Assembly: GCA_035561135.1 (NCBI GenBank)
Contig: DATMYA010000051.1
Span: 62,001-126,000, forward strand
Source: Clostridia bacterium
GTDB taxonomy: Bacteria; Acidobacteriota; Terriglobia; Terriglobales; Acidobacteriaceae
DNA length: 64,000 nt
Direction of reading: 5' to 3'
A model generated the notes under the pieces. That model did no database searches and was not told the origin of the DNA. It worked only from the letters and a program-made list of their open reading frames with translations. The position numbers and the translations under genes were made by a program. This document shows positions 1,936 to 30,296 of the stretch, piece after piece (position 1 is the first letter of the stretch; the number at the start of each line of letters is the position of its first letter).

Positions 1936-1939
1936 TTGA

Positions 1940-3945: not shown

Positions 3946-3950
3946 TTTTC

Positions 3951-6464: not shown

Positions 6465-6490
6465 GTTGGATTGAACAGAGCGCAATATCA

Positions 6491-7561
6491 ATGAATAACG
6501 TCCTTACATTTCTTCTCGTTGCCGTGATCAAAATCGTGGTTACAGTCGGTGTGCTGCTCACGATCGTGGCATACACGGTTTGGCTGGAGCGCAAAGTCGT
6601 AGGCCACATCCAGAACCGCTGGGGCCCTTCGCGCGTGGGTCCGTTTGGCCTTTTGCAGCCACTTGCCGACGGCGCAAAGTTCTTGCTAAAGGAAGATCTG
6701 ACGCCTCCATATGTGAGCCGGGGACTGTACTTGCTCGCTCCGGTGCTGGCACTCACGATGGCCATGACATCCATCGCGCTGGTGCCAATTGGTCCAAGCG
6801 TCACGATCTTTGGTATCACTACTCCGATACAGATCACCGGCATTACAGAAGCAAACGGTCAGGCCGGCGATATCGGTATTGGATTGTTGATTATTCTTGG
6901 CCTCACCTCCGTTGGTGTCTACGGCATCGCTCTCGCTGGCTGGTCTTCCAACAGCAAGTATTCCCTGCTGGGAGCGTTGCGTGCCTGCGCGCAGATGGTC
7001 AGTTATGAGGTTGCGCTCGGCCTGTCAGTTATCGGCGTGCTGATCATTTGCGAATCGTTCAGTTTGCGCGACATTGTGAATCAGCAGCAGGGTACGTGGC
7101 TCGGGTTTATCCCTAAGTGGAACATCTTCAAGGGACAGTTCATCGCGTTTTTCATCTACCTGATGGCTGCGTTCGCCGAAACTAACCGTATCCCTTTCGA
7201 TCTGCCTGAAGCGGAAACCGAGCTCGTGGCCGGATACCACACGGAGTACAGCGCGATGAAGTTCGCGATGTTCTTCATGGCCGAGTACGCCAACATGGTC
7301 ACCGTCGCGTGCCTGGCATCGGTTCTCTTCCTTGGCGGCTGGAGCGGCCCGGTTTTCGGTCCCCCGATTCTCCAGGGGCTACTGCCGGTGTTCTGGTTCC
7401 TGCTGCGAATTTTCGTTTTCCTGTTTATCTATATCTGGGTACGTGGCACGCTGCCGCGTTTCCGCTATGACCAACTGATGGCATTTGCGTGGAAGTTTCT
7501 TCTCCCGGTCGCCATCGCGAACATTGTGATAACAGCGCTGGTGGTAGCGCTGCGGTCGTAA
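6491..7561 (+). CDS. nuoH: NADH-quinone oxidoreductase subunit H (copy 1)
   Basis: A membrane subunit of about 356 residues at the junction of the arms, lining the quinone entry channel. Recognised from WLERKVVGHIQNRWGPSRVGP, GLLQPLADGAKFLLKED and NRIPFDLPEAETELVAGYHTEYS. I chose ATG 6491 (MNNVLTFLL); the upstream in-frame ATG at 6422 would add a non-conserved polar stretch. In most operons nuoI follows; here nuoJ does, after 109 nt with no ferredoxin gene. Confidence 0.95.
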   Translation: MNNVLTFLLVAVIKIVVTVGVLLTIVAYTVWLERKVVGHIQNRWGPSRVGPFGLLQPLADGAKFLLKEDLTPPYVSRGLYLLAPVLALTMAMTSIALVPIGPSVTIFGITTPIQITGITEANGQAGDIGIGLLIILGLTSVGVYGIALAGWSSNSKYSLLGALRACAQMVSYEVALGLSVIGVLIICESFSLRDIVNQQQGTWLGFIPKWNIFKGQFIAFFIYLMAAFAETNRIPFDLPEAETELVAGYHTEYSAMKFAMFFMAEYANMVTVACLASVLFLGGWSGPVFGPPILQGLLPVFWFLLRIFVFLFIYIWVRGTLPRFRYDQLMAFAWKFLLPVAIANIVITALVVALRS

Positions 7562-7670
7562 ACGTCAACGCGAGCGAGTAAGTTGCCTCAGCTCAAGTCA
7601 TCGGGCTGGTTAAGTTGAGAATCGAAATGAGCGGTATTCCGGCACGCCATAGACGCCGGCAAAAACAAAC

Positions 7671-8171
7671 ATGCTGCACTTAATCTTGTTCCTGATCTTT
7701 TCGGCGATCTGCGTTGGCGGGGCCATCAGCCTCCTCGCGCAGAAGCACCCGATCAACAGCGCTCTCTCGCTGATCGTGGTGATGGCATCGCTCGCGATGC
7801 TCTACCTCCTGCTCGGAGCCGAATTCGTGGCCGCCGTACAGGTCATCATCTACGCCGGCGCAATCATGGTGTTGTTCGTCTTCGTCATCATGTTGCTGAA
7901 TGCGGGCGCGGAAGAGCGTCACGGGACCAGCCGGGTCGCACTCATGTTCGGCGTTCCGGGCCTGCTGATCGGCCTTGTCGCTGTGGCGTGGGTACTCCTG
8001 CGCAGGAACGTCAGCGCCGGGCAAGTGATGATCGGAGCCCTGCATGGATCTGCCAAGGACATCGGACGCCTGCTCTTCCGCGATTTCCTGTTGCCGTTTG
8101 AAGTCACGTCCGTGTTGATCCTCATCGCGATCATGGGCGCCGTGGTCCTCGCCAGGAGGGGCGGAGAGTAA
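7671..8171 (+). CDS. nuoJ: NADH-quinone oxidoreductase subunit J (copy 1)
   Basis: A 166-residue membrane subunit with five predicted helices. The family motif is [26 protein letters not shown]. It takes part in the conformational link from quinone reduction to proton pumping. Its stop overlaps the nuoK start by one base (TAATG). Confidence 0.95.
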
Positions 8172-8473
8172 TGATTCCTCTTTGGTATTACCTGCTCCTG
8201 AGTGCGTTCCTCTTCGCCTGTGGCGTTGCTGGATTCCTCATCAAGCGAAACATCATTACCATTTTCATGTCGATCGAGCTTATGCTCAACGCTGTAAACC
8301 TCTCGTTCATAGCCTTTGCGACCCAATGGGACTCCTTGAATGGGCAGGTTTTCGTCTTCTTCGTCATGGTCGTGGCGGCCGCTGAAGCCGCCGTTGGACT
8401 GGCAATCATCATCTCCGTTTTCCGCACGCGCGAAACTCTGAACGTTGATCGCGTGAACTTGTTGAAACTATGA
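8171..8473 (+). CDS. nuoK: NADH-quinone oxidoreductase subunit K (copy 1)
   Basis: A 100-residue, three-helix proton-channel subunit. The two conserved membrane glutamates lie in [11 protein letters not shown] and in the third-helix [13 protein letters not shown]. It overlaps nuoJ upstream (TAATG) and nuoL downstream (ATGA), so J-K-L are translationally coupled. Confidence 0.96.
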
Positions 8474-10566
8474 GCTTGCATCTCTGGTTGATTCCGCTGT
8501 TGCCGGCGCTTGGCGCCGTGATCAACGGCCTCTTCGGACGGCGCTTCCCGAAGGCCGCTGTGAGCACGGTTGCCTTAACCTCGACCGCGCTTTCGTTCGG
8601 TTGGGCCGTGTTCGCCGCGCTCCAGTTCGTCGGTGGAGGCGCAGCCGCCGTTACCGAAAGTCACGGCGCATGGATTCGTGCCGGCAGTTTCAGTGTCGAA
8701 TACGGCTTCTACCTGGACCAGCTTTCGATGGTGATGATGCTGGTTGTGACCGGCGTCGGCTTTCTGATCCACGTTTACTCGGTCGGGTACATGGCGCATG
8801 AGGGCGGGTATTACCGCTTCTTCTCCTACCTGAACCTGTTCATGTTCTTCATGCTTACGCTGGTGCTCGCCGACAACTACCTGCTCATGTTCGTCGGATG
8901 GGAAGGCGTGGGCCTCGCGTCGTACTTGTTGATTGGCTTCTTTTTCCGTAGGGATTCGGCCGCTAACGCCGGCAAAAAGGCGTTCATCACGAATCGCGTC
9001 GGCGACTTCGGCTTCCTGATCGCGCTCTTTCTGCTGATCAAGCACTTCAACACGCTGCAGTACTCCGGCGTGTTCAAGGCCGTCAACGCCATGCCGGTTG
9101 AGACCGCCGGCGCCGGCTTGCTGACCGCCATTGGCCTGCTGATGCTCTTTGGCGCAACCGGCAAGTCTGCACAGATTCCGCTCTTCGTCTGGCTGCCCGA
9201 TGCCATGGAAGGCCCGACACCGGTATCCGCCCTCATCCACGCCGCCACCATGGTCACGGCCGGCGTTTACGTGATCGCGCGATCAAATGCCGTATTCAAC
9301 CACGCACCGATTGCCTTAATGGCCGTAGCCGTTGTCGGCTGCCTGACGGCGATCTTCGCCGCCACTATCGGCATGGCGCAGAACGACATAAAGCGAGTAC
9401 TCGCGTACTCGACCATCTCTCAGTTGGGTTACATGTTCCTGGCCTGCGGCGTTGCGGCTTACTCGGCGGGAATCTTCCACCTGATGACGCACGCCTTCTT
9501 CAAGGCGCTGCTCTTCCTTGGAGCCGGCTCTGTCATACACGCCCTCGGCGGTGAGCAGGATATGCGCCGCATGGGCGGCTTGCGCCATAAGATTCCGTAC
9601 ACGTACTGGACAATGACGGCGGCAACATTCACAATCGCCGGCTTCCCATTCCTGAGCGGATTCTTCTCGAAAGACGAGATCCTCTGGCAAACCTTCAGCA
9701 GCCCGCACGGACATTGGGTGCTCTGGCTTGTCGGCGTCACCACGGCCTTCCTTACATCCTTCTACATGTTCCGCATGTGGTTCATGACCTTCTGGGGCGA
9801 TTATCGCGGCGAAGCGCACGAAACTGGGGAGCACGCTGGTCACGCCCATGCCACTCCGATCGGTGGGCATGACACGATCGCACACGCGCCTGCGACGGGT
9901 TCGCACGGACAGGGTGCTGACGGCAATAGCGAACCGCACGAGTCGCCGTGGATCATGCTCGCTCCGCTCGTCATCCTGGCCGTCCTTTCGGTCGTCGGCG
10001 GATACGTCGGTGTGCCGCACGCCCTTGGCGGTAACAACACATTCCACAAATTCCTGGCTCCAGTGCTGCCGAGCACGGCCACCGTCGAAACCGGTACCCT
10101 TGCCGAGCACGTTGCCGGACCGGCGCAGGAATCTGCTTCGCATGGTGAATCCGCCTCGCATGAAGAGGTCGCGATGGAGCGCTTGCTCACGGGTGTTTCC
10201 GTGGCTGTGGCATTCGCCGGCTTCGGACTTGCCTGGTTGTTGTACGTGAAGCGCCGCGATTTGCCTGCCAAGATCACTGCGAGCTTGGGCACTGTTTACA
10301 AGACAGTTCTGAATAAGTACTACGTGGACGAGATCTACGGCGCCAGCGTCATCGGCCCAATCGTGGAAGGCTCAACGAAGCTCCTCTGGCGAGGGATCGA
10401 CGTGGGCGCGATCGACGCCACGGTTAACGAAGCCGCACGCGGCGCGCAAGACGTCTCCGATGGAGTTCGCCAACAACAGTCCGGCAACATTCGGTCTTAC
10501 GCCGGATGGGTTGCCGCCGGTGCCGCGCTGGTCATTGTCTATATGGTCTGGATGGGTACGAGATGA
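8470..10566 (+). CDS. nuoL: NADH-quinone oxidoreductase subunit L (copy 1)
   Basis: A 698-residue distal antiporter-like proton-pump subunit. Core motifs are [43 protein letters not shown] and the [19 protein letters not shown] stretch. A His-rich, probably solvent-exposed loop sits at about residues 447-493 ([19 protein letters not shown]). A second acidic/His segment precedes the C-terminal lateral helix. ATGA overlaps on both sides couple it to nuoK and nuoM. Confidence 0.96.
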
Positions 10567-12149
10567 ACGCCGCGAGTCTGAACGGCATTATCCTGACGCT
10601 GGTCACGTTTCTTCCTGCCGCAGGCGCTTTGCTGCTTGCATTCTTCCCGCGACGTGACCGCGACATACGCTGGTTCGCGCTGGCGATCTCCATCGCCACG
10701 CTGCTGGCTTCCCTGCACCTGCCCTGGCACTTCAGGAATGGAGACATGGGCTTCCAGTTTGAGCAGAACGTTGGCTGGATCCCGCTCGGCGCCGGTGAAG
10801 GCATTCGCTATCACCTCGGCATCGACGGTATCTCGCTGTGGCTGGTTATCCTGACCACGTTCCTGGTTCCGCTCAGTGTTCTCATCTCCTGGAAGTCGAT
10901 TCAAGACAGGGTGAAGGAGTTCTTCATCCTGCTGCTGCTGCTCGAGACGGCGATGATCGGCGTCTTCGTGTCTCTCGACCTCTTCCTCTTCTACTTCTTC
11001 TGGGAAGCCACGCTGATTCCGATGGCGCTGCTTATCGGCATGTATGGGCACGAGCGCCGAATCTACGCAGCTATCAAGTTCTTCCTGTTTACGATGATCG
11101 CTTCGGTCTTCATGCTCGGCGCAATCATCTGGCTCTATGTGCATACGGGAAGCTTCGACTTCGTAACCATCCAGGCGGCACTCGCGGGTGGGCAGGTTGA
11201 TGGTATTGCGACGGCGACGAAGTGGCTGTTCCTTGGCTTCTTTATAGCCTTTGCCGTCAAGGTACCTCTCTTTCCATTGCACACCTGGCTCCCCGACGCT
11301 CACGTGGAAGCGCCGACAGCGGGCTCTGTCCTTCTCGCCGGAGTGCTGCTGAAGATGGGCACCTACGGCCTACTCCGATTCAACCTTGGACTGTTCGCCG
11401 AAGAAGCTCGCCGCAATGCGCCGTGGATCATTGCGCTTGCGATTATCGGCATCATCTATGGCGCATTAGTCGCCATGGTGCAGCCGAATATGAAGAAGTT
11501 GATCGCCTATTCTTCGGTTAGCCACCTTGGGTTCGTTGTACTCGGCATCTTCAGCTTTACGCAAGCTGGCGTGAATGGCGCTGTTTACCAGATGCTGAAC
11601 CATGGCGTCTCGACCGGCGCACTGTTCATGCTGGCTGGCATTGTTTATGAGCGCCGCCACACCTATGAGATCAAGCAGTACGGCGGTCTGGCTACTCCCA
11701 TGCCGGTGTATGCCACCTTCTTCCTCATTATCACGCTATCCTCCATCGGTCTGCCGCTGATGAATGGCTTTGTCGGCGAGTTCCTCATCCTGACCGGCTC
11801 ATTCCAGGCTAAGGCAATCTACGGAATCCTGGCCGCAAGCGGCGTCATCTGGAGCGCGGCGTACATGCTCTGGATGTATCAACGCGTGTTCTACGGCACG
11901 GTCAAAAACGAGGCCAATGCTGCCCTGCCGGATATGAACGGCCGCGAGCGAGTCGCACTATTGCCGCTCGCAATCGCAGCGCTGGTCATGGGAGTCGCGC
12001 CTGTGCTCTGGCTGAACTCGATTGACCCGGCTGTGGCAAGGGCTATTTCCATGCGGCAGAACCAGCAAGCCGTATCCGGTGGCGTAACTACGCCGCTGCC
12101 CAACGTCGCTCCGGCGACACTGAACGTTCCTCAGGTGACCGGCCGATGA
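10563..12149 (+). CDS. nuoM: NADH-quinone oxidoreductase subunit M (copy 1)
   Basis: A 528-residue antiporter-like proton-pump subunit. Motifs: LFYFFWEATLIPMALLIGMYG with the key Glu, LPDAHVEAPTAGSVLLAGVLLKMGTYG, and QMLNHGVSTGALFMLAG. ATG 10563 overlaps the nuoL stop (ATGA). An in-frame ATG at 10506 would lie inside nuoL and is rejected. A short Pro/Gln-rich tail follows the last helix. Confidence 0.96.
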   Translation: MNAASLNGIILTLVTFLPAAGALLLAFFPRRDRDIRWFALAISIATLLASLHLPWHFRNGDMGFQFEQNVGWIPLGAGEGIRYHLGIDGISLWLVILTTFLVPLSVLISWKSIQDRVKEFFILLLLLETAMIGVFVSLDLFLFYFFWEATLIPMALLIGMYGHERRIYAAIKFFLFTMIASVFMLGAIIWLYVHTGSFDFVTIQAALAGGQVDGIATATKWLFLGFFIAFAVKVPLFPLHTWLPDAHVEAPTAGSVLLAGVLLKMGTYGLLRFNLGLFAEEARRNAPWIIALAIIGIIYGALVAMVQPNMKKLIAYSSVSHLGFVVLGIFSFTQAGVNGAVYQMLNHGVSTGALFMLAGIVYERRHTYEIKQYGGLATPMPVYATFFLIITLSSIGLPLMNGFVGEFLILTGSFQAKAIYGILAASGVIWSAAYMLWMYQRVFYGTVKNEANAALPDMNGRERVALLPLAIAALVMGVAPVLWLNSIDPAVARAISMRQNQQAVSGGVTTPLPNVAPATLNVPQVTGR

Positions 12150-13585
12150 TTCCCGCCGTCGATTACATTCGCATCCTGCCAGAGATCGTACTCACCGTCT
12201 TTGGCATCATCGTCATGATGGTGGACCCGCTCCTGAAGGATCAGGACGACCGCAAGTCGCTCGGCGCGGTTGCCGCAGTCGGCATCGTTGCCGCGATTAT
12301 CGCGACAGTTTACCAGTCCACCTATCCCGGGACGTCGTGGTGGGGCATGGTGCGGGTCGATAATTTCAGCATCTTCTTCCACATCGTCGTGCTTGTGGTC
12401 GCACTCGTTACGACCCTCATGTCGTTCGAGTACCTCAAGGTTCAGAACATTCGTCACGGCGAATATTACGGTCTTATCCTGTTCGGCACGGTTGGTATGG
12501 GCCTCATGTCGTCGGCCGTCGAACTGGTCCTGATCTTCATCGCCCTTGAGATTTCGTCCATCTCGACCTACGTTCTCGCTGGCTTCCGTCGGCGCGCAGC
12601 AGAAAGCACCGAATCGTCGCTGAAGTATTTCCTTCTCGGATCATTCGCTACGGCTTTCTTCCTCTATGGCATTGCCATGATGTTCGGCGCAACTGGGTCG
12701 ACAAACGTCGGGGAAATCGCCCGCGTCCTGCAAAACGACGCTCCAACGCTGGCCTATGTCGCTGTCGCGCTCATGTTCGTAGGACTGGGTTTCAAGGTTG
12801 CCGCGGCTCCCTTTCAGATTTGGACACCTGACGTGTACGAAGGCGCGCCGGCTCCCGTCGTAGGATTCATGTCGACCGCGCCGAAAGCTGCTGCGTTTGC
12901 CGTTCTGCTCCGGGTGCTCTTCGCCACATCGGCGCCGGGATGGTTCTGGCTGATCTGGATATCGGCGGCACTTTCAATGACGCTCGGCAATATGGGCGCG
13001 CTGGTACAACAGAACGTGAAACGCCTGTTGGCTTACTCCTCCATCGCGCACGCCGGCTACCTGCTAGTTGCATTCGCCGCCATCAAGGACACCAATGCCG
13101 GCATCTCAGCCGCCATGTTTTATTCAGCGTCGTATGCGGCGATGAACGTCGGTGCGTTCGCTGTCGTGAGCCATTTCGCAAGCACGGGCGAGAAGTACGT
13201 GTTGCTCGACGACTACGCTGGACTGGGACGACGTTCGCCCCTTCTGGCCGCGACGCTCACTATCTTCCTTTTATCCCTGATTGGAATTCCTATCACTGGG
13301 GGGTTCTTCGCGAAGTTTTACGTCTTCAGCGCGGCGCTCAAATCGAACCTCGTGGGATTGACCATCATCGGCCTGATCAACAGTGCCATCGGGGCGTTCT
13401 ACTATCTGCGAATCATCGTGTATATGTACATGCGCGATGAGCGCGTCAGCACTCCTGTCCCGCGCGTTCCCGTGGCATTGGGCTTCGCGCTCGTTGTCAG
13501 CGTTGTGGCTACTATTTATCTTGGCGTGTTTCCGGGTCGCGTGCTGAACTACGCACTCGAATCGGCAAGAATGTTGATGCAATAA
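12146..13585 (+). CDS. nuoN: NADH-quinone oxidoreductase subunit N (copy 1)
   Basis: The 479-residue third antiporter-like subunit. Motifs: ALEISSISTYVLAGF with the functional Glu, FKVAAAPFQIWTPDVYEGAPAP and KRLLAYSSIAHAGYLLVA. It starts in an ATGA overlap with nuoM and is the last gene of the operon. A terminator hairpin lies about 25 nt after the stop. Confidence 0.96.
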   Translation: MIPAVDYIRILPEIVLTVFGIIVMMVDPLLKDQDDRKSLGAVAAVGIVAAIIATVYQSTYPGTSWWGMVRVDNFSIFFHIVVLVVALVTTLMSFEYLKVQNIRHGEYYGLILFGTVGMGLMSSAVELVLIFIALEISSISTYVLAGFRRRAAESTESSLKYFLLGSFATAFFLYGIAMMFGATGSTNVGEIARVLQNDAPTLAYVAVALMFVGLGFKVAAAPFQIWTPDVYEGAPAPVVGFMSTAPKAAAFAVLLRVLFATSAPGWFWLIWISAALSMTLGNMGALVQQNVKRLLAYSSIAHAGYLLVAFAAIKDTNAGISAAMFYSASYAAMNVGAFAVVSHFASTGEKYVLLDDYAGLGRRSPLLAATLTIFLLSLIGIPITGGFFAKFYVFSAALKSNLVGLTIIGLINSAIGAFYYLRIIVYMYMRDERVSTPVPRVPVALGFALVVSVVATIYLGVFPGRVLNYALESARMLMQ

Positions 13586-17461: not shown

Positions 17462-19012
17462 CTACTTGACCAACTGCGCGACTGGCGTCGTTTGCACGAT
17501 GTTCAACGACCAGTTCACCGCCTGGATGAATAGGTTCGGGAAGATGCCGATACCGATTGTTCCAACACCGGTTATCGTCAAAGCGAGTGCCATGCCGGGG
17601 CTAACGCGTACCGGTTCAGCATCCACAGCCTCGCGCATGAACATCGCGTTGGCGATTCGCATGTAGTAGTAGAGGCTGACCACAGCGTAAAGCACCGCGA
17701 CGGCAGCCAGCGCATAATGGCCAGTCTCGACCAGGCTCAGAAAGATAAAGTACTTGCCCAAGAAGCCTGCCATGGGTGGAATTCCAGCTAGCGACAGCAG
17801 GAACACCAGCATCAGAAAAGCTTCGGTCGGAGCTTTATGGAAAAGCCCGGCGATGTCATCGATGTCGTCGCCGATGATGTTGCGGCGGCGCAGGGAAGTA
17901 ATGACGGCGAACGCGCCCAGGTTCATGAACGTGTACACCAGTAAGTACATCATGATGCCCTTGATGCCGGTCACGTTCGTGCGTCCGTCGCTTGCGACCA
18001 GGCCGAGCAGCATGTATCCAACGTGTGCGATCGAAGAATAGGCAAGCAGCCGCTTGAGGTTGTTCTGCGTGATTGCCGCCAGGTTGCCGCCCGTCAGCGT
18101 AGCGAGCGAGACGAAGACCAGCAACGGCACGTAGATGGGACGCAGCGGGTAGATGCCAAACAGGAAAATACGCAACAGTAAAGCCCATGCCGCAGACTTC
18201 ACGGCAACGGACATGAACCCGGTCACGCTGGTTGGCGCCCCTTCATACGCATCCGGCGCCCATTGATGGAATGGCACAGCAGCAATCTTGAATAGCAGGC
18301 CAGTCGCCGTCGTTATCAGGGCAAGGATGACGATAGGATCCTTCGGGTTTACGGCAAAGCGTTGTTCGAGTGCGAAGCCGATTTCGCCGAGATTCGTCGA
18401 ACCCGTCAGTCCATAGAACAATGACAGGCCGTAGGCGAAGATGCCGGACGAAAATGCTCCGAGCAGAAGATACTTCAACGATGCTTCGTTCGAGCGCTTG
18501 TCGCTGCGCAGGAACCCGACTAGAACGTAGGTAGACAGGGCCATCAGTTCCAGGCCGATGAAGAGCAGGATGAGGTCATAGCCGCAGGCCATGCACATCA
18601 TCCCGACAACTGCAAACAGCATGAGCGCGTAGAACTCGCCGTGATCTTCCCGCTCGATCTCGAGATAGCGGACGGACATCAGGATAGAAACCGCCGCGCC
18701 AAGCAGGAACAGGTAGAAGAAATAGATGGCGAAGCGATCTACCACCAGCGTCCCCATGAAGCCGCTGTAATGCGAGATTGTCAGGCCACGAAGTTCGGCC
18801 GCGCGAAACGCCGCGTGGATCTTGGCCACTCCTGCCGCCGAAAACGCGATCCCTGCCAGCGCGGTGATCGCATTGATGCGCTTCCACTCCGCTGGCAGGA
18901 TCAGATCGATCAGCAGAATCCCCAGCGCGAACAGTGCCAGCAGGATCATCGGCAGCGACAGCAGGTAGTCGGAGCTAGTGAAGAATTGTGAGATCGAGTT
19001 CGACACGATCAT
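17462..19012 (-). CDS. nuoN: NADH-quinone oxidoreductase subunit N (copy 2)
   Basis: 516 residues, starting at MIVSNSISQFF (19012). Motifs: LIGLELMALSTYVLVGF, FKIAAVPFHQWAPDAYEGAPTSV and KRLLAYSSIAHVGYMLLG. Clearly diverged from the first NuoN; it carries ELMALST where that has EISSIST. Last gene of the cluster. Confidence 0.95.
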   Translation of the reverse strand: MIVSNSISQFFTSSDYLLSLPMILLALFALGILLIDLILPAEWKRINAITALAGIAFSAAGVAKIHAAFRAAELRGLTISHYSGFMGTLVVDRFAIYFFYLFLLGAAVSILMSVRYLEIEREDHGEFYALMLFAVVGMMCMACGYDLILLFIGLELMALSTYVLVGFLRSDKRSNEASLKYLLLGAFSSGIFAYGLSLFYGLTGSTNLGEIGFALEQRFAVNPKDPIVILALITTATGLLFKIAAVPFHQWAPDAYEGAPTSVTGFMSVAVKSAAWALLLRIFLFGIYPLRPIYVPLLVFVSLATLTGGNLAAITQNNLKRLLAYSSIAHVGYMLLGLVASDGRTNVTGIKGIMMYLLVYTFMNLGAFAVITSLRRRNIIGDDIDDIAGLFHKAPTEAFLMLVFLLSLAGIPPMAGFLGKYFIFLSLVETGHYALAAVAVLYAVVSLYYYMRIANAMFMREAVDAEPVRVSPGMALALTITGVGTIGIGIFPNLFIQAVNWSLNIVQTTPVAQLVK

Positions 19013-19064
19013 TTCCCTTCGGAACGACCCGGTGCACACCCATGGCATGCACCGGAATGCTGAA

Positions 19065-20759
19065 TTACTTTGCCGCGCTGGGCGTGACCGAAACCACAGC
19101 AACGGGTACGTGGACGCCATGTGCCGGGCTCGGAGCAGCAACTTTCTGCTCGGGAGCTTGCGGTTGCTCTGCTTGTCCCTCTGTCTGCGATTGTGCTGGT
19201 TCCGCAGTCACTGCCGTCGCAGGCACAGTCGGCGCCTTCGCGTTGTACACGCCCTTCGTCTCGATCTTTTGCACGAGCTCAGTAACGGGCTGATCCAATA
19301 TCTGGAAGAACGGCTTCGGGTACAGACCGATCCAGAATGACAGGATCACGAGCGGAACGAAGGTCGCAAGCTCGCGGCCTGTAAGGTCCGTTAGTTTTTC
19401 GTTCTTCGGATTCGATACCGTCCCGAAGAAAACCCTTTGGTAAAGCCACAGCAGGTAGGCGGCGGCAAGTACGATTCCCGGGGCAGCCCAGGCAGCCCAG
19501 GCACGGTTCGCCATGAATGCGCCCTGCAGAATCGTGAATTCGCCAACGAAGCCGTTGAGCAGCGGCAAGCCCATCGACGACATGAACATGATCATCGTGA
19601 TAGTCGCGTACACCGGCATCACGCTAGAGATACCACCGTACTCTGAGATCTCGCGCGTGTGGCGGCGTTCGTACAGGATGCCGACAATCAAGAACAGCGC
19701 GCCGGTCGAGATGCCGTGGTTGATCTGCTGCAACACCGAACCGCTTATCCCGGAGTGGTTCAGCGCGAAAATGCCGAGGGTGCAGAAGCCAAGGTGACTC
19801 ACGGACGAGTACGCCACCAGCTTCTTCATATCCTTCTGCATCAGCGAAACCAGGGCACCGTAGGTGATGCCGATCAAAGAGAGGCCAATCATCCAAGCGC
19901 GAATTTTCGGATACTGCACTACCACTGGGAAGAGCGGAAGGGAGAAGCGGATCAGGCCGTATGTTCCCATCTTGAGCAGAACGCCTGCCAGGATCACTGA
20001 GCCGGCCGTCGGCGCTTCAACGTGCGCGTCTGGCAGCCAGGTGTGGAACGGGAACATCGGCACCTTGATCGCGAATCCGATAAAGAACGCCAGGAACAGG
20101 ACGATGCCCGCCGTGCCTGTAATCATCGGGGCGGTCTCGTACAGCGCCGGAACGCTGAACGTGTATACGCCCGTTACCGAGTGGTGGTGGAAGTACAGAT
20201 ATAGGATGCCGAGCAGCATCAGCACCGAACCGGCAAGGGTATACATGAAGAACTTGATCGCCGCATAGAGCTTGCGCGGACCACCCCAGATGCCGATAAG
20301 CAAGTACATTGGCACCAGCATAGCTTCCCAGAAGACGAAGAACAGAAAGAAGTCCATCGCCATGAAGACGCCGAGCATGCCCGTCTGGAGCACCAGGAAC
20401 CAGATGTAGTATTCCTTGACGCGGACCTGGATCGCTTCCCATGAGGACAGGATCGACACCGCACCGAGCATCGTCGTCAGCATAATCAGCAGGAACGAGA
20501 TGCCGTCAATTCCGATGAAGTAGCCGGCACCGATGGTTGGAATCCAATTATTCGGAGCGCCCTCCACGAACTTGAAGCCGGGCTGCGCCTTCACTGCCCA
20601 GAACCATGGGACCAATGGCAGCGACACCGCGAATCCGGCCATAGCGAAGATGTTCGCCATCCAGCGAATCGCGTTCTTGTTCTCCCTGGGTACGAACAGG
20701 AGAATGAGGGCCCCCACCAGGGGAGTGAACAGCACGATCGAGAGAATGTGGTTATACAT
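19065..20759 (-). CDS. nuoM: NADH-quinone oxidoreductase subunit M (copy 2)
   Basis: 564 residues. Motifs: LFFVFWEAMLVPMYLLIGIWGG, LPDAHVEAPTAGSVILAGVLLKMGTYG and QINHGISTGALFLIVGILYERRH. After the last helix there is a hydrophilic Ala/Pro/Gln-rich tail of about 65 residues (roughly 500-564), absent from copy 1. A similar Ala/Pro-rich extension occurs on NuoC2 of this cluster. Confidence 0.95.
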   Translation of the reverse strand: MYNHILSIVLFTPLVGALILLFVPRENKNAIRWMANIFAMAGFAVSLPLVPWFWAVKAQPGFKFVEGAPNNWIPTIGAGYFIGIDGISFLLIMLTTMLGAVSILSSWEAIQVRVKEYYIWFLVLQTGMLGVFMAMDFFLFFVFWEAMLVPMYLLIGIWGGPRKLYAAIKFFMYTLAGSVLMLLGILYLYFHHHSVTGVYTFSVPALYETAPMITGTAGIVLFLAFFIGFAIKVPMFPFHTWLPDAHVEAPTAGSVILAGVLLKMGTYGLIRFSLPLFPVVVQYPKIRAWMIGLSLIGITYGALVSLMQKDMKKLVAYSSVSHLGFCTLGIFALNHSGISGSVLQQINHGISTGALFLIVGILYERRHTREISEYGGISSVMPVYATITMIMFMSSMGLPLLNGFVGEFTILQGAFMANRAWAAWAAPGIVLAAAYLLWLYQRVFFGTVSNPKNEKLTDLTGRELATFVPLVILSFWIGLYPKPFFQILDQPVTELVQKIETKGVYNAKAPTVPATAVTAEPAQSQTEGQAEQPQAPEQKVAAPSPAHGVHVPVAVVSVTPSAAK

Positions 20760-20810
20760 TTTTAATTCCGTCCGTGAAGCGAGCCTGAATTCTCAGGGCG
20801 CTCAATCCGT

Positions 20811-23063
20811 TTACCTGATCACGTAGTACCAAATGAACCCGACCAAGCCGCAAACCATGACCAGCGCATACCACTGCACCAGTCCCCATTGCACCAGGCG
20901 CACCGGGTAGGAAAGCACACGTGCGACAACCGCGGGGCCGTTAACGAGAAGCCCGTCAATGATCCACTTATCCCACCAGTTCAGCACCCAACCGAAGAAC
21001 TTGGTCATCCAGCCCGCACCGTTCACGCCGCCATCGATGACATTGGCATCAAACTTCCATAAAGCGATTCCCAAGCCCTGCACGCCGAGACGTACCGTGC
21101 CCAGCTTGCGGCGTCCGGTGAAGAGTATGTCGTATAGCTCATCCACGTAATACTTATTAAAGAGTGTGCGATAAACCGCGGGAGCCGCTTCATTGATCGG
21201 CTCCGTATAACCTTTGTCGGCATTACGGTACGCGCGATATGCGAGGAACATCCCAAGTAACGCTGCCGCAACTGATGCAACCATCAGGATGTACTCCAGC
21301 GGCTCGAACTCATGTGCAGCATGAGCCGGCACAACGTTCGACGGAGGTTCAATTCCCTCTTTCGCCGCTTCGTTCACGTGCGTAGCTTCGGTCGCAGCCT
21401 GCTCGCCTTCCGTCTGCTTCGCGGAATTCTCGCCCGCTACCAGCGTTCCGTGTTCGCCAGCTCCCAAGGCCGAGTGTGTCGTTGTGGCGCCATGCGCCTC
21501 GCGAGCGAAGACCGGCTCAAGGAACTTTTCGAAATGGTTCGACCCGCCGAGGCTGGCAGGCACGCCAAGGTAGCCGACGAAGATCGACCCGAGTGCCAGC
21601 ACCATGAGCGGAATCGTCATCGACTTTGGAGATTCGTGGATATGGTGCTCGACCTCGTGGCTCATGCGCGGCTTGCTGAAGAACGTCAGCCAGATCAGCC
21701 TGAACATGTAGAACGCGGTCATCAGAGCGGTAATGAACGCGACCACCCAGAGAATCCTGAATTGTCCGTTATTGCTCGACCAGGTTTGCCAAAGGATCTC
21801 GTCCTTCGAGAAGAAGCCAGCCAGACCGGGGATTCCGGCGATGGCGAGCGTGCCGATCAACATTGTCCGGAAGGTTACCGGAATCTTCTTTGAGAGGCCG
21901 CCCATAAAGCGCATGTCCTGCTCGCCGCTCATGGCGTGGATCACCGATCCGGAACCGAGGAACAGCAGCGCCTTAAAGAACGCGTGCGTGAAGACGTGGA
22001 AGACGCCGGCGGCGAATGCGCCAACGCCGAGCGCCAGGAACATGTACCCAAGCTGCGATACTGTCGAATACGCCAGGACACGCTTGATGTCGTTCTGCAC
22101 CAGGCCAATCGATGCTGCGAAGATTGCCGTCAAACCGCCGACCACGGCCACTACTTCCATTGACGTAGGCGCGAGTTGGAACAAGGCATTGCTGCGCGCC
22201 ACCATGTAAACGCCCGCCGTTACCATCGTTGCCGCGTGGATCAGTGCGGAAACAGGCGTGGGACCCTCCATCGCGTCCGGAAGCCAGACATACAGAGGAA
22301 GCTGTGCGGATTTGCCGCAAGCGCCCAGGAAGAGCAACAGCGTCGCCGCCGTGAGGACCAAATCCCCTGTCTGAAAGTTGCCGCTCCGCAGCGTTTCGTT
22401 GATGGCCGTGAACTTCACCGTGCCCAGGTACCACATGATCGTCATCGACCCGAGCAGCACGCCGGCATCGCCGACACGGTTGACAATGAATGCTTTGTTC
22501 GCCGCCGTCGAGGCCGAGTGCTTATGGAAGTAGAAACCAATCAACAGGTACGAACACAGACCCACACCCTCCCACCCGACGAACATCATCATGTAATTGT
22601 TGCCGAGGATGAGTGTCAGCATGGAGAACATGAACAGGTTCAGGTACCCGAAGAATCGGTAGTACCCGCCTTCATGCGCCATATACCCGGTGGAGTAGAT
22701 GTGGATGAGCATGCCGATGCCGGTCACGAATAGTAACCAGATGCACGACAGCGGATCCAGCAGGAATCCCGCTTCGGCCTTGAACTGACCGAGTTGACCA
22801 TCCCTCATGGGGAAGGTGAACTTGCCAGTATCACTGCCAAGCCACGTGTACATCACCTTCTCGAATGGCTTGCCTTCAGGCCCCGCGTAGGTGTGCACGT
22901 ACTGGTACACGGCCATGCACGACAGCAGGAAGGCCAGGGCCACCATGCCAACGCAGATGGCGTTCACCGCCGGCTTGCTCAGACGCTTGCCGAAAAAGAA
23001 CATCGCGGCCGCGCCGAATGCCGGCAGGAGTGGAATGATCCAAATGTGTTCCAAGAAGAACAT
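20811..23063 (-). CDS. nuoL: NADH-quinone oxidoreductase subunit L (copy 2)
   Basis: 750 residues, about 50 more than copy 1. Core motifs are [39 protein letters not shown] and [19 protein letters not shown]. The extra length is a hydrophilic Ala/Glu/His-rich insertion at about residues 520-590, before the last helices and the lateral arm. A 241-nt spacer without recognisable genes separates it from nuoK2. Confidence 0.95.
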   Translation of the reverse strand: MFFLEHIWIIPLLPAFGAAAMFFFGKRLSKPAVNAICVGMVALAFLLSCMAVYQYVHTYAGPEGKPFEKVMYTWLGSDTGKFTFPMRDGQLGQFKAEAGFLLDPLSCIWLLFVTGIGMLIHIYSTGYMAHEGGYYRFFGYLNLFMFSMLTLILGNNYMMMFVGWEGVGLCSYLLIGFYFHKHSASTAANKAFIVNRVGDAGVLLGSMTIMWYLGTVKFTAINETLRSGNFQTGDLVLTAATLLLFLGACGKSAQLPLYVWLPDAMEGPTPVSALIHAATMVTAGVYMVARSNALFQLAPTSMEVVAVVGGLTAIFAASIGLVQNDIKRVLAYSTVSQLGYMFLALGVGAFAAGVFHVFTHAFFKALLFLGSGSVIHAMSGEQDMRFMGGLSKKIPVTFRTMLIGTLAIAGIPGLAGFFSKDEILWQTWSSNNGQFRILWVVAFITALMTAFYMFRLIWLTFFSKPRMSHEVEHHIHESPKSMTIPLMVLALGSIFVGYLGVPASLGGSNHFEKFLEPVFAREAHGATTTHSALGAGEHGTLVAGENSAKQTEGEQAATEATHVNEAAKEGIEPPSNVVPAHAAHEFEPLEYILMVASVAAALLGMFLAYRAYRNADKGYTEPINEAAPAVYRTLFNKYYVDELYDILFTGRRKLGTVRLGVQGLGIALWKFDANVIDGGVNGAGWMTKFFGWVLNWWDKWIIDGLLVNGPAVVARVLSYPVRLVQWGLVQWYALVMVCGLVGFIWYYVIR

Positions 23064-23304
23064 GGTTTGTTCTCAGTCCCGATGCCAATCGCTTGCACCG
23101 GTGTTGGGGCCGTCTCCGTCCCGATCTCTACTTTCAACCGCCCGGCTCAAAATCGCCGGCCAGCCAGGTACGTCCGCTTCGTCGCCTTTTGCAGCCTGGA
23201 ATTCCTGGCCTGATCTTCGTATCGCAAAAAGCGCTTCGGCCAATTCGCTCTATGTCTCAGGGCTCAACTGCTTCTCACTACTACTCTTGACTTCGGGCCG
23301 TTTC

Positions 23305-23610
23305 TTACCATTTCAGCAGGTCTACCTCATCCATGTTCACCGTTTCCTTATTGCGGAAGAAAGCGATGATGATCCCGAGGCCGATAGCAGCTTCTGCCGC
23401 TGCGTCTGCCACGATGAAGATGGAGAATATCTGCCCATGCATTCCGTGCAATCGCGAGAACGCAACCAGGTTGAGGTTGACCGCATTGAGGATCAGCTCG
23501 ATTGACATGAGAATGATGACTACGTTGCGACGCGTGAGCACGCCAATCGTGCCGATGATGAACAGCGCCGCCGCGACGACCAGGTAATGAAGTGTAGTGA
23601 TCTCAGACAT
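23305..23610 (-). CDS. nuoK: NADH-quinone oxidoreductase subunit K (copy 2)
   Basis: A 101-residue, three-helix proton-channel subunit with conserved Glu in [15 protein letters not shown] and in [13 protein letters not shown]. It starts 2 nt after the nuoJ2 stop. Confidence 0.95.
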
Positions 23611-23612
23611 CG

Positions 23613-24122
23613 TCAGACCCTCTTCTTCGCCATGACCACCGCACCGATGATCGCAACCAGCAGCAACAACGATGCGATCTCGAACGGCATCATGTAATTG
23701 CGGTAAAGCCAGATTCCGATCTGCTGCGTGTTGTTCTCTTCGGGCAGCATCTGAAAAGTGACGGGAAAGACCGAAGCTCCGCGCTTATAGATGAACAGCA
23801 GCAAGCCGCCCAGAGTGAGCGTCGCAAGCACTCCAACCAGCCAGTGCTTGTTAAATTGCTCTTCCAGTTGAGCCTTTTCCAGATTCACCAGCATGATCAC
23901 GAACAAGAACAGCACCATGATGCCGCCCGCGTACACAATGATCTGAACGCCGGCAACGAAAGGTGCATAGAGCATCAAGTACAGCCCGGCCAGCGCAAGC
24001 AGCGTGGAAATCAACGACAGCGCCGAGTGCACCGGATTCCGGCGGGTGATCGTCAGGATCGCTCCCCCGATCGCTACCGCCGAGAGGAAATAGAAGAAGA
24101 ATGTTGTAGCTACCGGCATCAT
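23613..24122 (-). CDS. nuoJ: NADH-quinone oxidoreductase subunit J (copy 2)
   Basis: 169 residues and five helices, with the motif [26 protein letters not shown]. The loop [21 protein letters not shown] differs from copy 1. It overlaps the nuoI stop by ATGA. Confidence 0.95.
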
Positions 24123-24580
24123 CGTGCGTACACCGTCGGTTCAGCGCCTTTCTCCAGCCGGGCGCGGTCCAGGACCATGCCGTCGCGGCTGTAAAGCGCA
24201 ACTTCGTAGTCTTGCGTTAGTTCCAGGCAATCACTCGGGCAGGCGTCCTCGCACAGACCGCAATACATGCAACGGCTCGTGTCATAACTGAAGGAGCCCA
24301 GCTCCTTCTTCCCTGTCGCGGGATTGCGCTCGCTCTTGACCGTGAGGAGCCGCTCAGGACACGCGAGCGCACACAGACCGCAGGCGATGCACAATGTCTC
24401 ACCCGTTTCCGGATTCACGTTCATGCGCGGCTGTCCACGGAAGCGCTCGGCAATAATCGGGCGCTCAAGCGGATACTGCTCGGTACAGAGCTCTTTTGGG
24501 GCCTGGTATCGAAATGTGACACTTAAACCCTTCAGTAGATCAACCAGGAAAACTTTACGGAGCAATGGAGCGATACTCAC
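24119..24580 (-). CDS. nuoI: NADH-quinone oxidoreductase subunit I, two [4Fe-4S] ferredoxin
   Basis: 153 residues from a GTG at 24580 that overlaps the nuoH2 stop (GTGA). An upstream ATG in frame would overlap nuoH2 by 144 nt and is unlikely. Ligands of clusters N6a/N6b are C64/67/70/74 and C104/107/110/114. It links NuoG-type electron input to NuoB. This is the only nuoI in the window, so the first cluster would need it, or another copy elsewhere, to be complete. Confidence 0.94.
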   Translation of the reverse strand: MSIAPLLRKVFLVDLLKGLSVTFRYQAPKELCTEQYPLERPIIAERFRGQPRMNVNPETGETLCIACGLCALACPERLLTVKSERNPATGKKELGSFSYDTSRCMYCGLCEDACPSDCLELTQDYEVALYSRDGMVLDRARLEKGAEPTVYAR

Positions 24581-25821
24581 TGGAACACCCCCCAGAGGGC
24601 TGTCGCCATCAATGCGCCCAGCGCAGTCGGCAACAAAACCTTCCAGCCCACTCTCATCAACTGATCGAAGCGGTAGCGCGGGAAGGTAGCGCGATACCAG
24701 ATATACAAGTACATGAACAGGCAAACCTTAAGCGAAAACCAGTAAATGTCCTGCACACGCTCACGAACACCGGGCAGCAGCATGATCGCTCCAAGGAACG
24801 CGAGCAGGGCACCGAACCCGGCAAACCCGACTGCCTGGATCTTCATCTGCGGGATTTTTGGCATCTTCGCGGCGAGGACTAGGCACCACAGCCCAAGGCC
24901 GATGAACGTCACACCGGGCGCCAGCGAAAACGCAAGTTCCCAGGTATTTCCGCTCAGGACATTCGGGAAGGGCCGCATCCATCCGCCTAGCCACAGCGTT
25001 ACGGCGACGGACGATACGGCAATCATCGCGGCATATTCAGCCAGGAAGAACAACGACCAGCGGAAGCCCGAATACTCTGTGTGAAAACCAGCGACCAGTT
25101 CCGATTCCGCTTCCGGTAAATCGAATGGTGCGCGATTAGTTTCCGCGACCATCGCGACCGCGAAGACCATAAAGGCGACAAAGCCGAGTCCCCAGCCGTT
25201 GAAGATGAACCAAGTTCGCTGATCGAACTGCGATTGCACGATGCCGATCATGCTCAGGGTTCCCGTACCGGTCTTCAGACTGGTCATCAGGATCACGCAA
25301 ACGATCGACAATCCCATCGCGATCTCGTATGACACCATCTGCGCACTGGACCGCAACGAGCCCATCAGCGGGTAGTGCGAGTTCGACGACCAGCCGGCCA
25401 TGATGATGCCCAGCACGCTCAGTGACGACACGCCAAGCATGAACAGTATGCCGATGTTCATGTCGGTAACAGCGTGGGTGCGTCCGAACGGAATCACCAG
25501 GTAGGTAGTGAACGCGACCATCATTACCGAGACTGGCGCAAACCAGAAGACAAGCTTGTCGGCCTTGTCCGGCATGATGTCTTCCTTCAGCATCAGCTTG
25601 AGTGCGTCGGCAATTGGCTGCAACAAGCCATGCGGACCAACGCGCATTGGACCCAGGCGAACCTGCATATGCGCCAGGATCTTGCGCTCCAGCCACGTCA
25701 TGAGCATTACGGCGATGGAGGCAAACAGGAAGATCAGGAGGATATAAATCGTGGCCCAGAGGTAATCTCCTGCTTCGCCGGGCGTCACGTTCGTGTGCAG
25801 GTAATTGGTCAGGAAGCCCAT
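24577..25821 (-). CDS. nuoH: NADH-quinone oxidoreductase subunit H (copy 2)
   Basis: 414 residues. Motifs: WLERKILAHMQVRLGPMRVGPHGLLQP, NRAPFDLPEAESELVAGFHTEYSGF and RATFPRYRFDQLM. About 58 residues longer than copy 1, mostly from a longer stretch in the last third and at the N-terminus. Its ATG overlaps the nuoD2 stop by one base. Confidence 0.95.
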   Translation of the reverse strand: MGFLTNYLHTNVTPGEAGDYLWATIYILLIFLFASIAVMLMTWLERKILAHMQVRLGPMRVGPHGLLQPIADALKLMLKEDIMPDKADKLVFWFAPVSVMMVAFTTYLVIPFGRTHAVTDMNIGILFMLGVSSLSVLGIIMAGWSSNSHYPLMGSLRSSAQMVSYEIAMGLSIVCVILMTSLKTGTGTLSMIGIVQSQFDQRTWFIFNGWGLGFVAFMVFAVAMVAETNRAPFDLPEAESELVAGFHTEYSGFRWSLFFLAEYAAMIAVSSVAVTLWLGGWMRPFPNVLSGNTWELAFSLAPGVTFIGLGLWCLVLAAKMPKIPQMKIQAVGFAGFGALLAFLGAIMLLPGVRERVQDIYWFSLKVCLFMYLYIWYRATFPRYRFDQLMRVGWKVLLPTALGALMATALWGVFQ

Positions 25822-26975
25822 TACCGGTCCACCTCTCCGAGGACGATGTCGAGCGTTCCGATCACTGCGACCACGTCAGCCACCAGGCGGCCGCGGACCA
25901 TCGTGTCGAGCGCTTGCAGATTGACGAACGACGGCGGACGGACGCGCACACGGTACGGCTGCGTCGAACCGTCGCTCACAATGAAGTAACCGAGTTCGCC
26001 CTTGGGGGCCTCGATGGAATGATAAATTTCACCCACCGGCGGCTTGAGCACCTTGGGAATCTTGGCCATGATCGGCCCTTGCGACAATCCGGCGACGGCC
26101 TGCCGCACGATCCGCACCGCCTGCCGCATCTCTTCGATACGCACCAGGTACCGATCGTAGGTGTCGCAATTCGTGCCGATAGGAATGTCGAACTCGAAGT
26201 CTTTGTAAGCCGCGTACGGCTTGGCTTTCCGCAGATCCCAGCGAACACCGCTGGCGCGCAACACTGGCCCGGTCACGCCGAGCGCAATGCACTCTTCCGC
26301 GGTGATAATTCCAATACCCTTCGTGCGTTCCACCCAGATCCGATTTGTGGTCAGGAGCTCTTCATACTCATCGATCTTCGGCAGTACGTGATCGCAGAAG
26401 TTCAGGCAGTCCTGCTCAAAACCTTCGTAGGTCTCGTACTGGCAGCCGCCAATGCGGAAAGCGTGCGTCGTCAATCTCGCTCCGCAGTACTTCTCGAAAA
26501 TCTTCAGAACCTCTTCGCGATCGCGGAAGGTGTAGAACAGCGGGGTCAATGCGCCTATGTCGAGCGCGTGTGTGCCGAGCCATACCTGGTGGCTGGCAAT
26601 ACGGTTCAACTCCGTCAGAATCACGCGGATGTACTGCGCCCGCGGCGGAGCTTCCACATTCATCAGCTTCTCGACAGCCTCGCAATAGCCAAGGCCATTC
26701 GATACGGCAGCAACATAGTCCATTCGATCGACGTAGGGATTGAACTGCGCATACGTGCGGTTTTCGGCAATCTTTTCAACGCCACGGTGCAGGTAACCAA
26801 TGACGCACTCGGTTCCAAGCACCTTCTCGCCATCCAGCTTCAGGATGACGCGCAACACGCCGTGCGTAGACGGGTGTTGCGGCCCCATGTTGAGGATGAG
26901 CTCGCTGGAGTCGAGAAACGTACCCTCGTTGCTCGATATCTGCTCAAGTCTTGCGTAGAGATTTTCGTCGCTCAT
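25821..26975 (-). CDS. nuoD: NADH-quinone oxidoreductase subunit D (copy 2)
   Basis: 384 residues from [10 protein letters not shown] (26975), which overlaps the nuoC2 stop (ATGA). Motifs: [45 protein letters not shown] and the C-terminal LGEVDR. Close in size to copy 1 but clearly diverged. Confidence 0.95.
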
Positions 26976-27676
26976 TGGCCGCTCTCGATGCCGATGTTGA
27001 TCTGCACCCATTCCTGATCCTGCTGAAGGATGCCGTATTCCTTGCGAAGCGGGTACCCCTTCCATCCCTCCGGCAGCAGAATACGCCGCAGGTCCGGGTG
27101 TCCGGAAAAGTTAAGTCCGAACATGTCAAACGCTTCACGTTCCAGCCAGTTTGCAGTTGGCCATAATTCGACCACGCTGGGTACGTCCTCCCCATCCTTC
27201 ACCGGCGACTTCACCCGAATGCGCTCATTGCGCGCGAAGGAATACAGAATCCAGACGACCTCGAACTGCTCCTCCCGCTTCGGATAGTGAACAGCCGTCA
27301 CATCCACGCAGTAATCAAACTGTTCAGCCTCGCGAAGCATCTTCAGGACGTCGTACACCACCGAGCGATCCACTATCAAGTAGTTCTGCCCGAGGTAGGT
27401 GGACGCTTCCCGCAGACCAGAGCCATAGCGCTGCTTCAAGTCTTTGGTGAATTCGGTCTCCCACGGCTGCGGAGTTGGCCCTGCCGGTTTTGGCGGCACA
27501 GCCGGCTTCGCAGGAGTGACGGCAGGTTTGGCTGCGGCCGGTGCAGCGGGAGCAGTAACCTTCTCTGGCGCTGCTGGCGTTGACACCGGTTGCTCCATCG
27601 CAGACTTCTCCGCTGGCGGTTGCGAAGCGCTTTCTGCGGGAGTTGGCCGGCTATTTCCTTTTGTTTCTTCGGACAT
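26972..27676 (-). CDS. nuoC: NADH-quinone oxidoreductase subunit C (copy 2), Ala/Pro-rich N-terminal extension
   Basis: 234 residues from [11 protein letters not shown] (27676). Residues 1 to about 70 are a low-complexity Ala/Pro/Lys linker; the 30-kDa domain follows, with [27 protein letters not shown] and PLRKEYG. An earlier in-frame start at 27709 is possible. First gene of the C-to-N transcript, with a candidate promoter and a Crp-type palindrome upstream. Confidence 0.93.
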
Positions 27677-27792: not shown

Positions 27793-27798
27793 TTTATA
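27793..27798 (-). promoter_or_regulatory. Candidate -10 box of the nuoC2-N2 operon
   Basis: TATAAA on the - strand, in the context GTTATAAAAAGG. No good -35 lies 16-18 nt upstream, as is usual for activator-dependent promoters. The Crp-type palindrome centred at 27849.5 would be at about -62 from the predicted start. Confidence 0.45.
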
Positions 27799-27841
27799 AC
27801 ACCGCCCAGCACGCCAACTGCTGATTCAGGTCACAGGAAGA

Positions 27842-27857
27842 AGTGATGTGGATCACA
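27842..27857 (-). promoter_or_regulatory. CRP/FNR-family binding site upstream of nuoC2
   Basis: The - strand reads TGTGA-TCCACA-TCACT, matching the CRP consensus TGTGA-N6-TCACA at 9 of 10 positions. The core GTGAT-CCAC-ATCAC is a perfect inverted repeat. Its spacing to the candidate TATAAA box fits a class I activator position. The regulator itself is not in the window. Confidence 0.6.
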
Positions 27858-27928
27858 AACTCCCATATGAGACCCGCTTATCCGCGCGAGACAAATCGTG
27901 TGTGTGCCGATGCAGTAATCCTCGCTAA

Positions 27929-27970
27929 AAAATAAAACCCCTACCCTGCTGCGTCGCAGGTTCGGGGTTC
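27929..27970 (-). terminator. Strong terminator between nuoA2 and nuoC2
   Basis: On the - strand a hairpin of about 12 pairs (AACCCC/GGGGTT outer, CTGC-type inner stem, two mismatches) runs directly into TTTTATTTTTTAG. It lies about 170 nt past the nuoA2 stop and about 250 nt before nuoC2. Hence nuoA2 is probably transcribed separately. Confidence 0.85.
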
Positions 27971-28136
27971 TTCGAAACCAGGATTGTGGCTGTACAAATC
28001 CCCAAACTCATTACTGAACAGCGACGAGCAAACGAAAGTCCGCGCAGTCGTTCCATCGTATTGTTCCGCGCCACGGTGTCATCTTTTCGGTTGGCACGGG
28101 GCGAGGAGCCCCCCACGTCTGCGGCGGGACTAAGAC
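27971..28136 (-). other. Non-coding interval at the usual nuoB position; possible structured RNA
   Basis: The 460 bp between nuoC2 and nuoA2 contain no NuoB motifs in any frame. The part before the terminator can form hairpins on the - strand: GGGG...CCCC near 28105, and GGATT-GT...AC-AATCC near 27982-28002. It may be a 3' UTR, a processed sRNA, or a stand-alone RNA. I could not match it to 6S, SRP, tmRNA or RNase P. Confidence 0.35.
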
Positions 28137-28493
28137 TTACACCCACTCCAGGGCGCCCTTCTTCCAGATCCAGATATATCCAACGATCAGGATTCCGAGG
28201 AAGATCAGCATCTCGACGAAACCGAATATGCCGAGCAGTTTGAACTGTACCGCCCAAGGGAAGAGGAAGATGGTCTCCACGTCGAATACTACAAACAGGA
28301 TCGCGACGATGTAGAAACGGATCGTGTAACGTTTTCGAGCATCATCGACCGGATCGATGCCGCACTCATACGGCATCAGTTTAATCTTGCTCGGATTGCT
28401 CGGGCGAATGATGGTGGCGACGACCAGAGTCCCCGCCGCAATTAGAAATGCGACGAGCATAAAAATGAAAATCGGTACGTAGTTCTGCGGCAT
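28137..28493 (-). CDS. nuoA: NADH-quinone oxidoreductase subunit A (copy 2)
   Basis: 118 residues from MPQNYVPIFIFM (28493). Three helices; the conserved YECGIDP and the acidic pair in FDVETIFLFPWA are present. Separated from the rest of its cluster by a terminator and not followed by nuoB. A longer start at 28532 is possible but poorly supported. Confidence 0.95.
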   Translation of the reverse strand: MPQNYVPIFIFMLVAFLIAAGTLVVATIIRPSNPSKIKLMPYECGIDPVDDARKRYTIRFYIVAILFVVFDVETIFLFPWAVQFKLLGIFGFVEMLIFLGILIVGYIWIWKKGALEWV

Positions 28494-28519
28494 ACGGCCT
28501 CGTATGGGGTTGAGCGGGG

Positions 28520-28548
28520 AGTTTACTCCCAATCAGCACCTGCTTCAA
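28520..28548 (-). promoter_or_regulatory. Sigma70-type promoter of nuoA2
   Basis: -35 TTGAAG (28543-28548), 17-nt spacer, -10 TAAACT (28520-28525) on the - strand. The expected start is about 20 nt before the nuoA2 ATG. Confidence 0.5.
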
Positions 28549-28575
28549 CCCTACGAGAGCACCTAACCTCCGGTC

Positions 28576-28591
28576 AGTGACAGAAATCACA
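28576..28591 (-). promoter_or_regulatory. CRP/FNR-family binding site upstream of nuoA2
   Basis: The - strand reads TGTGA-TTTCTG-TCACT, with the same ten defined bases as the site before nuoC2. Centred about 70 nt upstream of the predicted nuoA2 start, close to a class I activator position. It also lies between nuoA2 and the divergent lysS. Confidence 0.58.
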
Positions 28592-28736
28592 ATACGGGTT
28601 CTCTGCTCCAATCGCCTGATCTGCCGTCCGTCATCTGCCGTCCGCGGTCCCAATGTTTATAATCAGTGTTTCGCCGCGATCGCACTCTGCATTCCACATA
28701 GGCCGCCTGCGGCAGGCGCACGAAGGTATCCATCAA

Positions 28737-30296
<1,560 letters not shown>

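Follow-up and report, generated by a model that had tools for sequence, protein, structure and literature searches.

Two matching palindromes upstream of complex I genes

The locus described here raises the question of whether two short, nearly identical sequences, placed before two genes of a second complex I (complex I-2), are operators of one regulator, and to which regulator and signal they answer. The organism is a soil acidobacterium with a genome of 4.19 Mb in 95 contigs, and the window is the 64-kb stretch that was analysed as a whole. It holds nuoA2 (28137..28493, - strand; PF00507, E 1.7e-39), nuoC2 (26972..27676, - strand; PF00329, E 8.1e-43), which is the first gene of nuoCDHIJKLMN-2, and nuoD, H, I, J, K, L, M and N of complex I-2 (17462..27065, - strand). 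The initial annotation had placed a CRP/FNR-type site before each of the first two genes, and both sites are exactly where it put them on the - strand: TGTGATCCACATCACT at 27842..27857, upstream of nuoC2, and TGTGATTTCTGTCACT at 28576..28591, upstream of nuoA2, each conserved in relatives.

The pattern TGTGAN6TCACT matches at these two places only in the window, where 0.06 matches were expected, and two or more were obtained in 0 of 100 shuffles. When two mismatches were allowed the frequency in the window was not above chance, so that the case for the sites rests on the strict form. One-mismatch palindromes are also present in the window at 57288-57303 and 60920-60935 (TGTGACACGGATCGCA and TGTGCGTGCAATCACA).

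Genome-wide, TGTGAN6TCACW matches at 24 distinct places and its reversed control at 3. With the spacer of TGTGA-N-TCACA varied from 1 to 16, there were 13 places at spacing 6 versus 12 summed over the other 15 spacings. The proposal that a genome scan with the site model would find it more often than chance is thus upheld. Sites outside the window pair gave the motif TGTGA(C/T)N4(G/A)TCACA. Position 6, which was not part of the search pattern, prefers C/T, A being found there in 0/26 palindrome half-sites of this genome and in 2/54 of its relative G015; a preference for T before TGTGA was looked for and none was seen. In a matrix built without them, both window sites score 19.0, the top two values of the window.

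Genes near the sites

Gene calls outside the window were made with a simple codon-bias caller, which left 21 of the 24 places intergenic; a twenty-second, the nuoB2 site discussed below, is upstream of the real ATG. The neighbouring genes include those for cytochrome bd, NrfA, HypF and two ferredoxin-reducing enzymes, pyruvate:ferredoxin oxidoreductase and a second 2-oxoacid:ferredoxin oxidoreductase; others are hemB, hemE and genes for NapC-type and multihaem cytochromes, for cytochrome c assembly and for an NfnA/DHODB-type Fe-S subunit. In G015, 23 of the 27 palindromes are intergenic; among their neighbours cydA, hemE, glyS and the genes for cytochrome c assembly and a TPR protein recur, as does an fnr gene. 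Sites are also found at fnr genes. The regulon is a low-oxygen programme and not a catabolite programme. A search of the literature, weak evidence because restricted to open-access papers, found no acidobacterial FNR/CRP or oxygen regulon.

Some further genes stand beside sites. TIGR04053, a radical SAM/SPASM family with ties to the haem b synthase AhbD, has a member (L116:7526-8674, G000:C84) beside a site that also belongs to the nrfA neighbourhood. A protein of 866 aa in a multihaem cytochrome cluster is flanked by sites (L110:11239-13839, G000:C20), and Pfam and NCBIfam searches returned no match for it. In the window, lysS (28653-30296, + strand) is divergent from nuoA2 and has its ATG about 70 bp from the nuoA2 site, through which it may be co-regulated. 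A site at glyS was found in two genomes (loci L104 and L261).

Three units of complex I-2

Subunits A, C, D and H-N of complex I-2 are encoded in the window, where B, E, F and G were not found; E, F and G were not found in the homologous complex I-2 loci of relatives either. A search for NuoB located an orphan nuoB2 outside the window, on contig C23, with a perfect palindrome centred 65.5 bp before its ATG. Orthologues of NuoB2 in relatives are 84-90% identical within the family, versus about 66% for NuoB1. With A, B, C, D and H-N present and E, F and G absent, the gene set is that of an 11-subunit complex I without NuoEFG. The genome has four NuoF-like genes, one of them in nuo1, and complex I-2 might borrow NuoEFG from complex I-1.

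Complex I-2 is therefore encoded in three units, nuoA2, nuoB2 and nuoCDHIJKLMN-2, each preceded by a site. The earlier reading of a second complex I split into two co-regulated transcripts is supported for the co-regulation and for the separation of nuoA2 from nuoC2, which have a predicted intrinsic terminator between them (27926..27971, - strand; hairpin of -23.2 kcal/mol, z -4.9, followed by TTTTATTTTTT). The count has to be corrected to three, given the orphan nuoB2 with its own site. The terminator was not listed by a consensus scan. The promoter of nuo1, the complete complex I-1, has no site (best score -3.2). As a separate observation, the nuoB of complex I-1 also lies outside its own operon, on contig C70 (G000:C70:21093-21722), and operon 1 (window 1-13585) showed no nuoI in the interval from nuoH to nuoJ.

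Among the family genomes with complex I-2, a nuoB2 site is present in this genome, in G015 and in G021 (apparently the same species as locus L024), 63.5-67.5 bp from the ATG, and the same three have nuoA2 and nuoC2 sites. G004 has the nuoC2 site only, and the other family relatives with complex I-2 have none. In 29 further genomes, a set that overlaps slightly with the former since G048 and G061 appear to be the same as G004 and G010, the nuoB2 site accompanies nuoA2 or nuoC2 sites in 10 of the 12 genomes that have them and is missing from all 17 that do not (Fisher 3e-6, a value that ignores phylogeny and overstates independence). The genomes are not independent, because about four changes on the nuoH tree are enough to account for the site states. 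Sites at three separate promoters were kept together through deep divergence and are missing together. G010 and G003 have Fnr and many palindromes, yet no site at any nuo unit, and the nuo wiring is therefore lineage-specific.

Promoter geometry and the tandem operator

A scan with the sigma-70 consensus gave no convincing promoter at either window site, and offsets compared across relatives did better. In the nuoC2 promoters of 15 genomes a TGnTAYAAA-like element stands 52-53 bp from the strong-site centre (z 4.1); in the window it corresponds to a predicted extended -10, TG-T-TATAAA, at 27793..27801 (- strand). This distance would place the strong site at about -63.5 and a weak tandem site 22 bp downstream of it, TGTGACCTGAATCAGC (27820..27835, - strand), at about -41.5. 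The nuoA2 and nuoB2 promoters of relatives have in common a -10-like element some 30-34 bp from the strong-site centre, which would bring the strong site near -42, and both look like class II promoters. For nuoA2 the element is a predicted weak -10, TAGGGT (28548..28553, - strand), whose position is conserved in relatives (z 3.2 at k=30). A competing -10, TAAACT (28525-28520, - strand), belongs to a promoter TTGAAG-N17-TAAACT that would set the site near -70; it was rejected, as relatives gave it no support. For the pooled regulon the peak of -10 offsets is modest.

Both sites had initially been assigned to class I positions, 62 and 70 nt from candidate starts which were themselves predicted. 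If class I means a centre near -61.5 or further upstream only, the strong nuoC2 site would fit at its predicted -63.5, but a pure class I reading is doubtful, given the weak second site predicted at -41.5; for nuoA2 the assignment is probably wrong, since comparative footprinting puts the site at about -42.

The spacing of 22 bp is not confined to nuoC2. GTGA recurs at +22 bp in 10 of 24 sites, while every other shift between -90 and +90 gives 2 or fewer (mean 0.26). On new data it was present at 10/27 sites of G015, 3/5 of G011, 1/7 of G002, 15/29 nuo promoters of relatives and 9/17 fnr loci, with +21 and +23 near zero. Two of the fnr loci had already been counted as sites of G011 and G002; with duplicates taken out, the weak +22 site was present at 43 of 92 sites. 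About half of the operators thus carry a second, weak site 22 bp off, a feature new here. In the nuoC2 cases the weak site is the one nearer the promoter; elsewhere this does not always hold. Its half-site avoids A at position 6 (0/43), and its partner half matches TCAC at three or more of four positions in 16/43 cases, against 1.8 expected, for which reasons the same kind of protein probably binds this degenerate site as well, at a distance of two helical turns. The flanks of the tandem sites show no conservation, contrary to what a repeat family would give. Such a tandem is an unusual architecture for a whole regulon; the open-access literature, again weak evidence, yielded no 22-bp tandem FNR operators.

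Candidate regulators

Five proteins with a Crp-type HTH are encoded in the genome. Two of them, Fnr1 (G000:C8:164523-165236) and Fnr2 (G000:C20:44198-44899), match PF00027, PF13545 and PF00325 above the cut-off, which places them in the CRP/FNR superfamily (cNMP-binding fold plus Crp-type HTH). They have a common N-terminal CxxCx8C, in which the first two cysteines correspond in the alignment to C20 and C23 of E. coli FNR. All homologues in the family keep these three cysteines, and a fourth, in the region of C122, is retained in about half of them only. In the alignment the recognition helix RETVTR (RETVxR) keeps R180, E181 and R185 of CRP, whereas the cAMP ligands of CRP (E72, R82, S83, T127 and S128) are not kept. 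Arg180 reportedly distinguishes CRP-like signals from FNR-like ones (PMC545781). The NCBIfam Fnr model NF008365 scores 47 and 49 bits, far below its cut-off of 228; the half-site is TGTGA(C/T) and not the TTGAT of FNR proper, and CxxCx8C stands in place of the FNR ligand set C20/C23/C29/C122 with its CxxCx5C. By the features tested, the predicted proteins are not FNR proper and combine an FNR-like sensor with a CRP-like reading head.

The density of palindromes follows the presence and closeness of an Fnr homologue (Spearman 0.74 in 41 genomes and 0.60 within the family, phylogeny not being removed). The original attribution of the two sites to a Crp/Fnr-family protein is supported. As for the signal, of which oxygen or cAMP had been suggested, oxygen or redox is likely and cAMP is not, because CxxCx8C is present and the cAMP ligands are missing; the low-oxygen targets agree with the prediction for oxygen.

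Directly downstream of Fnr2 is an HTH-less FNR paralogue of 171 aa (G000:C20:43358-43831; L110:15347-15862, - strand), made up of sensor and dimer helix only, with three N-terminal cysteines and a site of its own at C20:43887. It stands beside Fnr2 in at least six relatives (G003, G004, G010, G013, G015 and G021), and could possibly be a heterodimer partner or an anti-activator.

Alternative explanations

Chance matches might be suspected at both window sites, as each deviates by one base from the perfect palindrome and TGTGAN6TCACT alone has 11 places in the genome. Yet orthologous promoters retain the sites, -10 elements stand at a fixed distance from them and nuoB2 bears a site in the same genomes; together with the shuffles, the spacer-specific peak and the conservation across genomes, this makes chance so extremely unlikely that we reject it. 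Rex, a repressor that senses NADH/NAD+, could be thought to bind the sites, having the same core TGTGA-N6-TCACA and an overlapping set of targets (cyd, nuo); in Staphylococcus aureus it binds TTGTGAAW4TTCACAA before anaerobic genes (PMC2883068). Its operator TTGTGAA-N4-TTCACAA needs the A at position 6 that is lacking from all half-sites of this genome and nearly all of G015, and that the weak tandem halves avoid as well, and no T is preferred before TGTGA. In addition, the number of palindromes tracks the Fnr homologue and the fnr genes themselves carry sites. The flank bases disfavour Rex, which we consider quite improbable.

A catabolite regulator of the cAMP-CRP type would agree with the palindrome, which is identical to that bound by CRP in E. 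coli, and with the CRP-like recognition helices. Against this, the targets are respiratory and low-oxygen rather than catabolic, and the two paralogues on contig C14 have other recognition helices (TTRSRVSFF); we reject cAMP control, a very improbable reading, on the missing ligand residues of Fnr1 and Fnr2. A sensor of nitrosative stress or nitrogen oxides like HcpR or DNR, in place of an oxygen sensor, would agree with nrfA and NapC-type cytochrome genes among the targets, and HcpR uses TTGTGAN6TCACAA (PMC545781). The flanking T/A preference of that motif is absent here; the candidate, a regulator at C20:32443 without N-terminal cysteines, has a helix TVRELVSR that differs from the RETVTR type, and oxygen is the better match for the hem, cyd, PFOR and nuo targets, so that such a sensor is unlikely.

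Proposed mechanism and implications

We consider it probable that the sites are operators of the FNR-like regulator family of Fnr1 and Fnr2, which would bind TGTGAY-N4-RTCACA and activate the three complex I-2 units at low oxygen. Computation gave the sites with their joint distribution and geometry, and we infer the oxygen signal, the iron-sulphur cluster and the activation. At low O2 an N-terminal iron-sulphur cluster on CxxCx8C would stay intact and keep the dimer active. Dimers of Fnr1 and/or Fnr2 would then bind and activate all three units, recruiting RNA polymerase from about -42 on nuoA2 and nuoB2 and, on nuoC2, with one dimer at -63.5 and its neighbour at -41.5. The 11-subunit NuoEFG-less complex I would be made along with pyruvate:ferredoxin oxidoreductase. 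Ferredoxin is its likely electron donor, because complex I-2 is without the NADH module and is wired with ferredoxin-reducing enzymes.

More tentatively, acidobacterial FNR-like regulators could use a regulon-wide tandem operator in which two dimers bind cooperatively on one DNA face, the HTH-less paralogue tunes the response and the -63.5/-41.5 arrangement of nuoC2 is a double-activator promoter for a ferredoxin-driven complex I; we see this as possible but doubtful. Tuning may involve heterodimers with one DNA-reading head only.

Acidobacteria are abundant in soil, and the analysis provides for them a testable site model together with candidate regulators and a list of targets. The presence of two complex I sets in many bacteria is a long-standing puzzle that can be addressed directly here, where a duplicated NuoEFG-less complex I appears tied to low oxygen.

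Comparison with known systems

Rex has the core palindrome of the system proposed here and targets of partly coinciding types (PMC2883068), but it requires TTGTGAA and is a repressor of a different fold. HcpR of Desulfovibrio and clostridia likewise has a CRP-like palindrome, TTGTGAN6TCACAA, and anaerobic energy genes as targets (PMC545781), but its regulon is centred on hcp, and the preference for flanking T/A is absent here. E. coli CRP has the TGTGAN6TCACA site and R180, E181 and R185 in its recognition helix; here the cAMP ligands are missing, the regulon is another one and a cysteine cluster is added. Bacillus subtilis Fnr recognises a CRP-like TGTGA site. It is a three-cysteine regulator too, and senses oxygen with three cysteine ligands plus Asp141 (PMC3520743), but its cysteines are C-terminal, whereas those of Fnr1 and Fnr2 are N-terminal. 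E. coli FNR differs in its half-site TTGAT and its CxxCx5C, against the TGTGA and CxxCx8C, the fourth cysteine that is not universal and the tandem 22-bp operators found here. Like Fnr1 and Fnr2, it has a Crp fold and an N-terminal cysteine cluster, the first two cysteines of which, C20 and C23, are those aligned here; the control of cyd, nrf, nap and other anaerobic genes and the class II positions near -41.5 would be further features in common.
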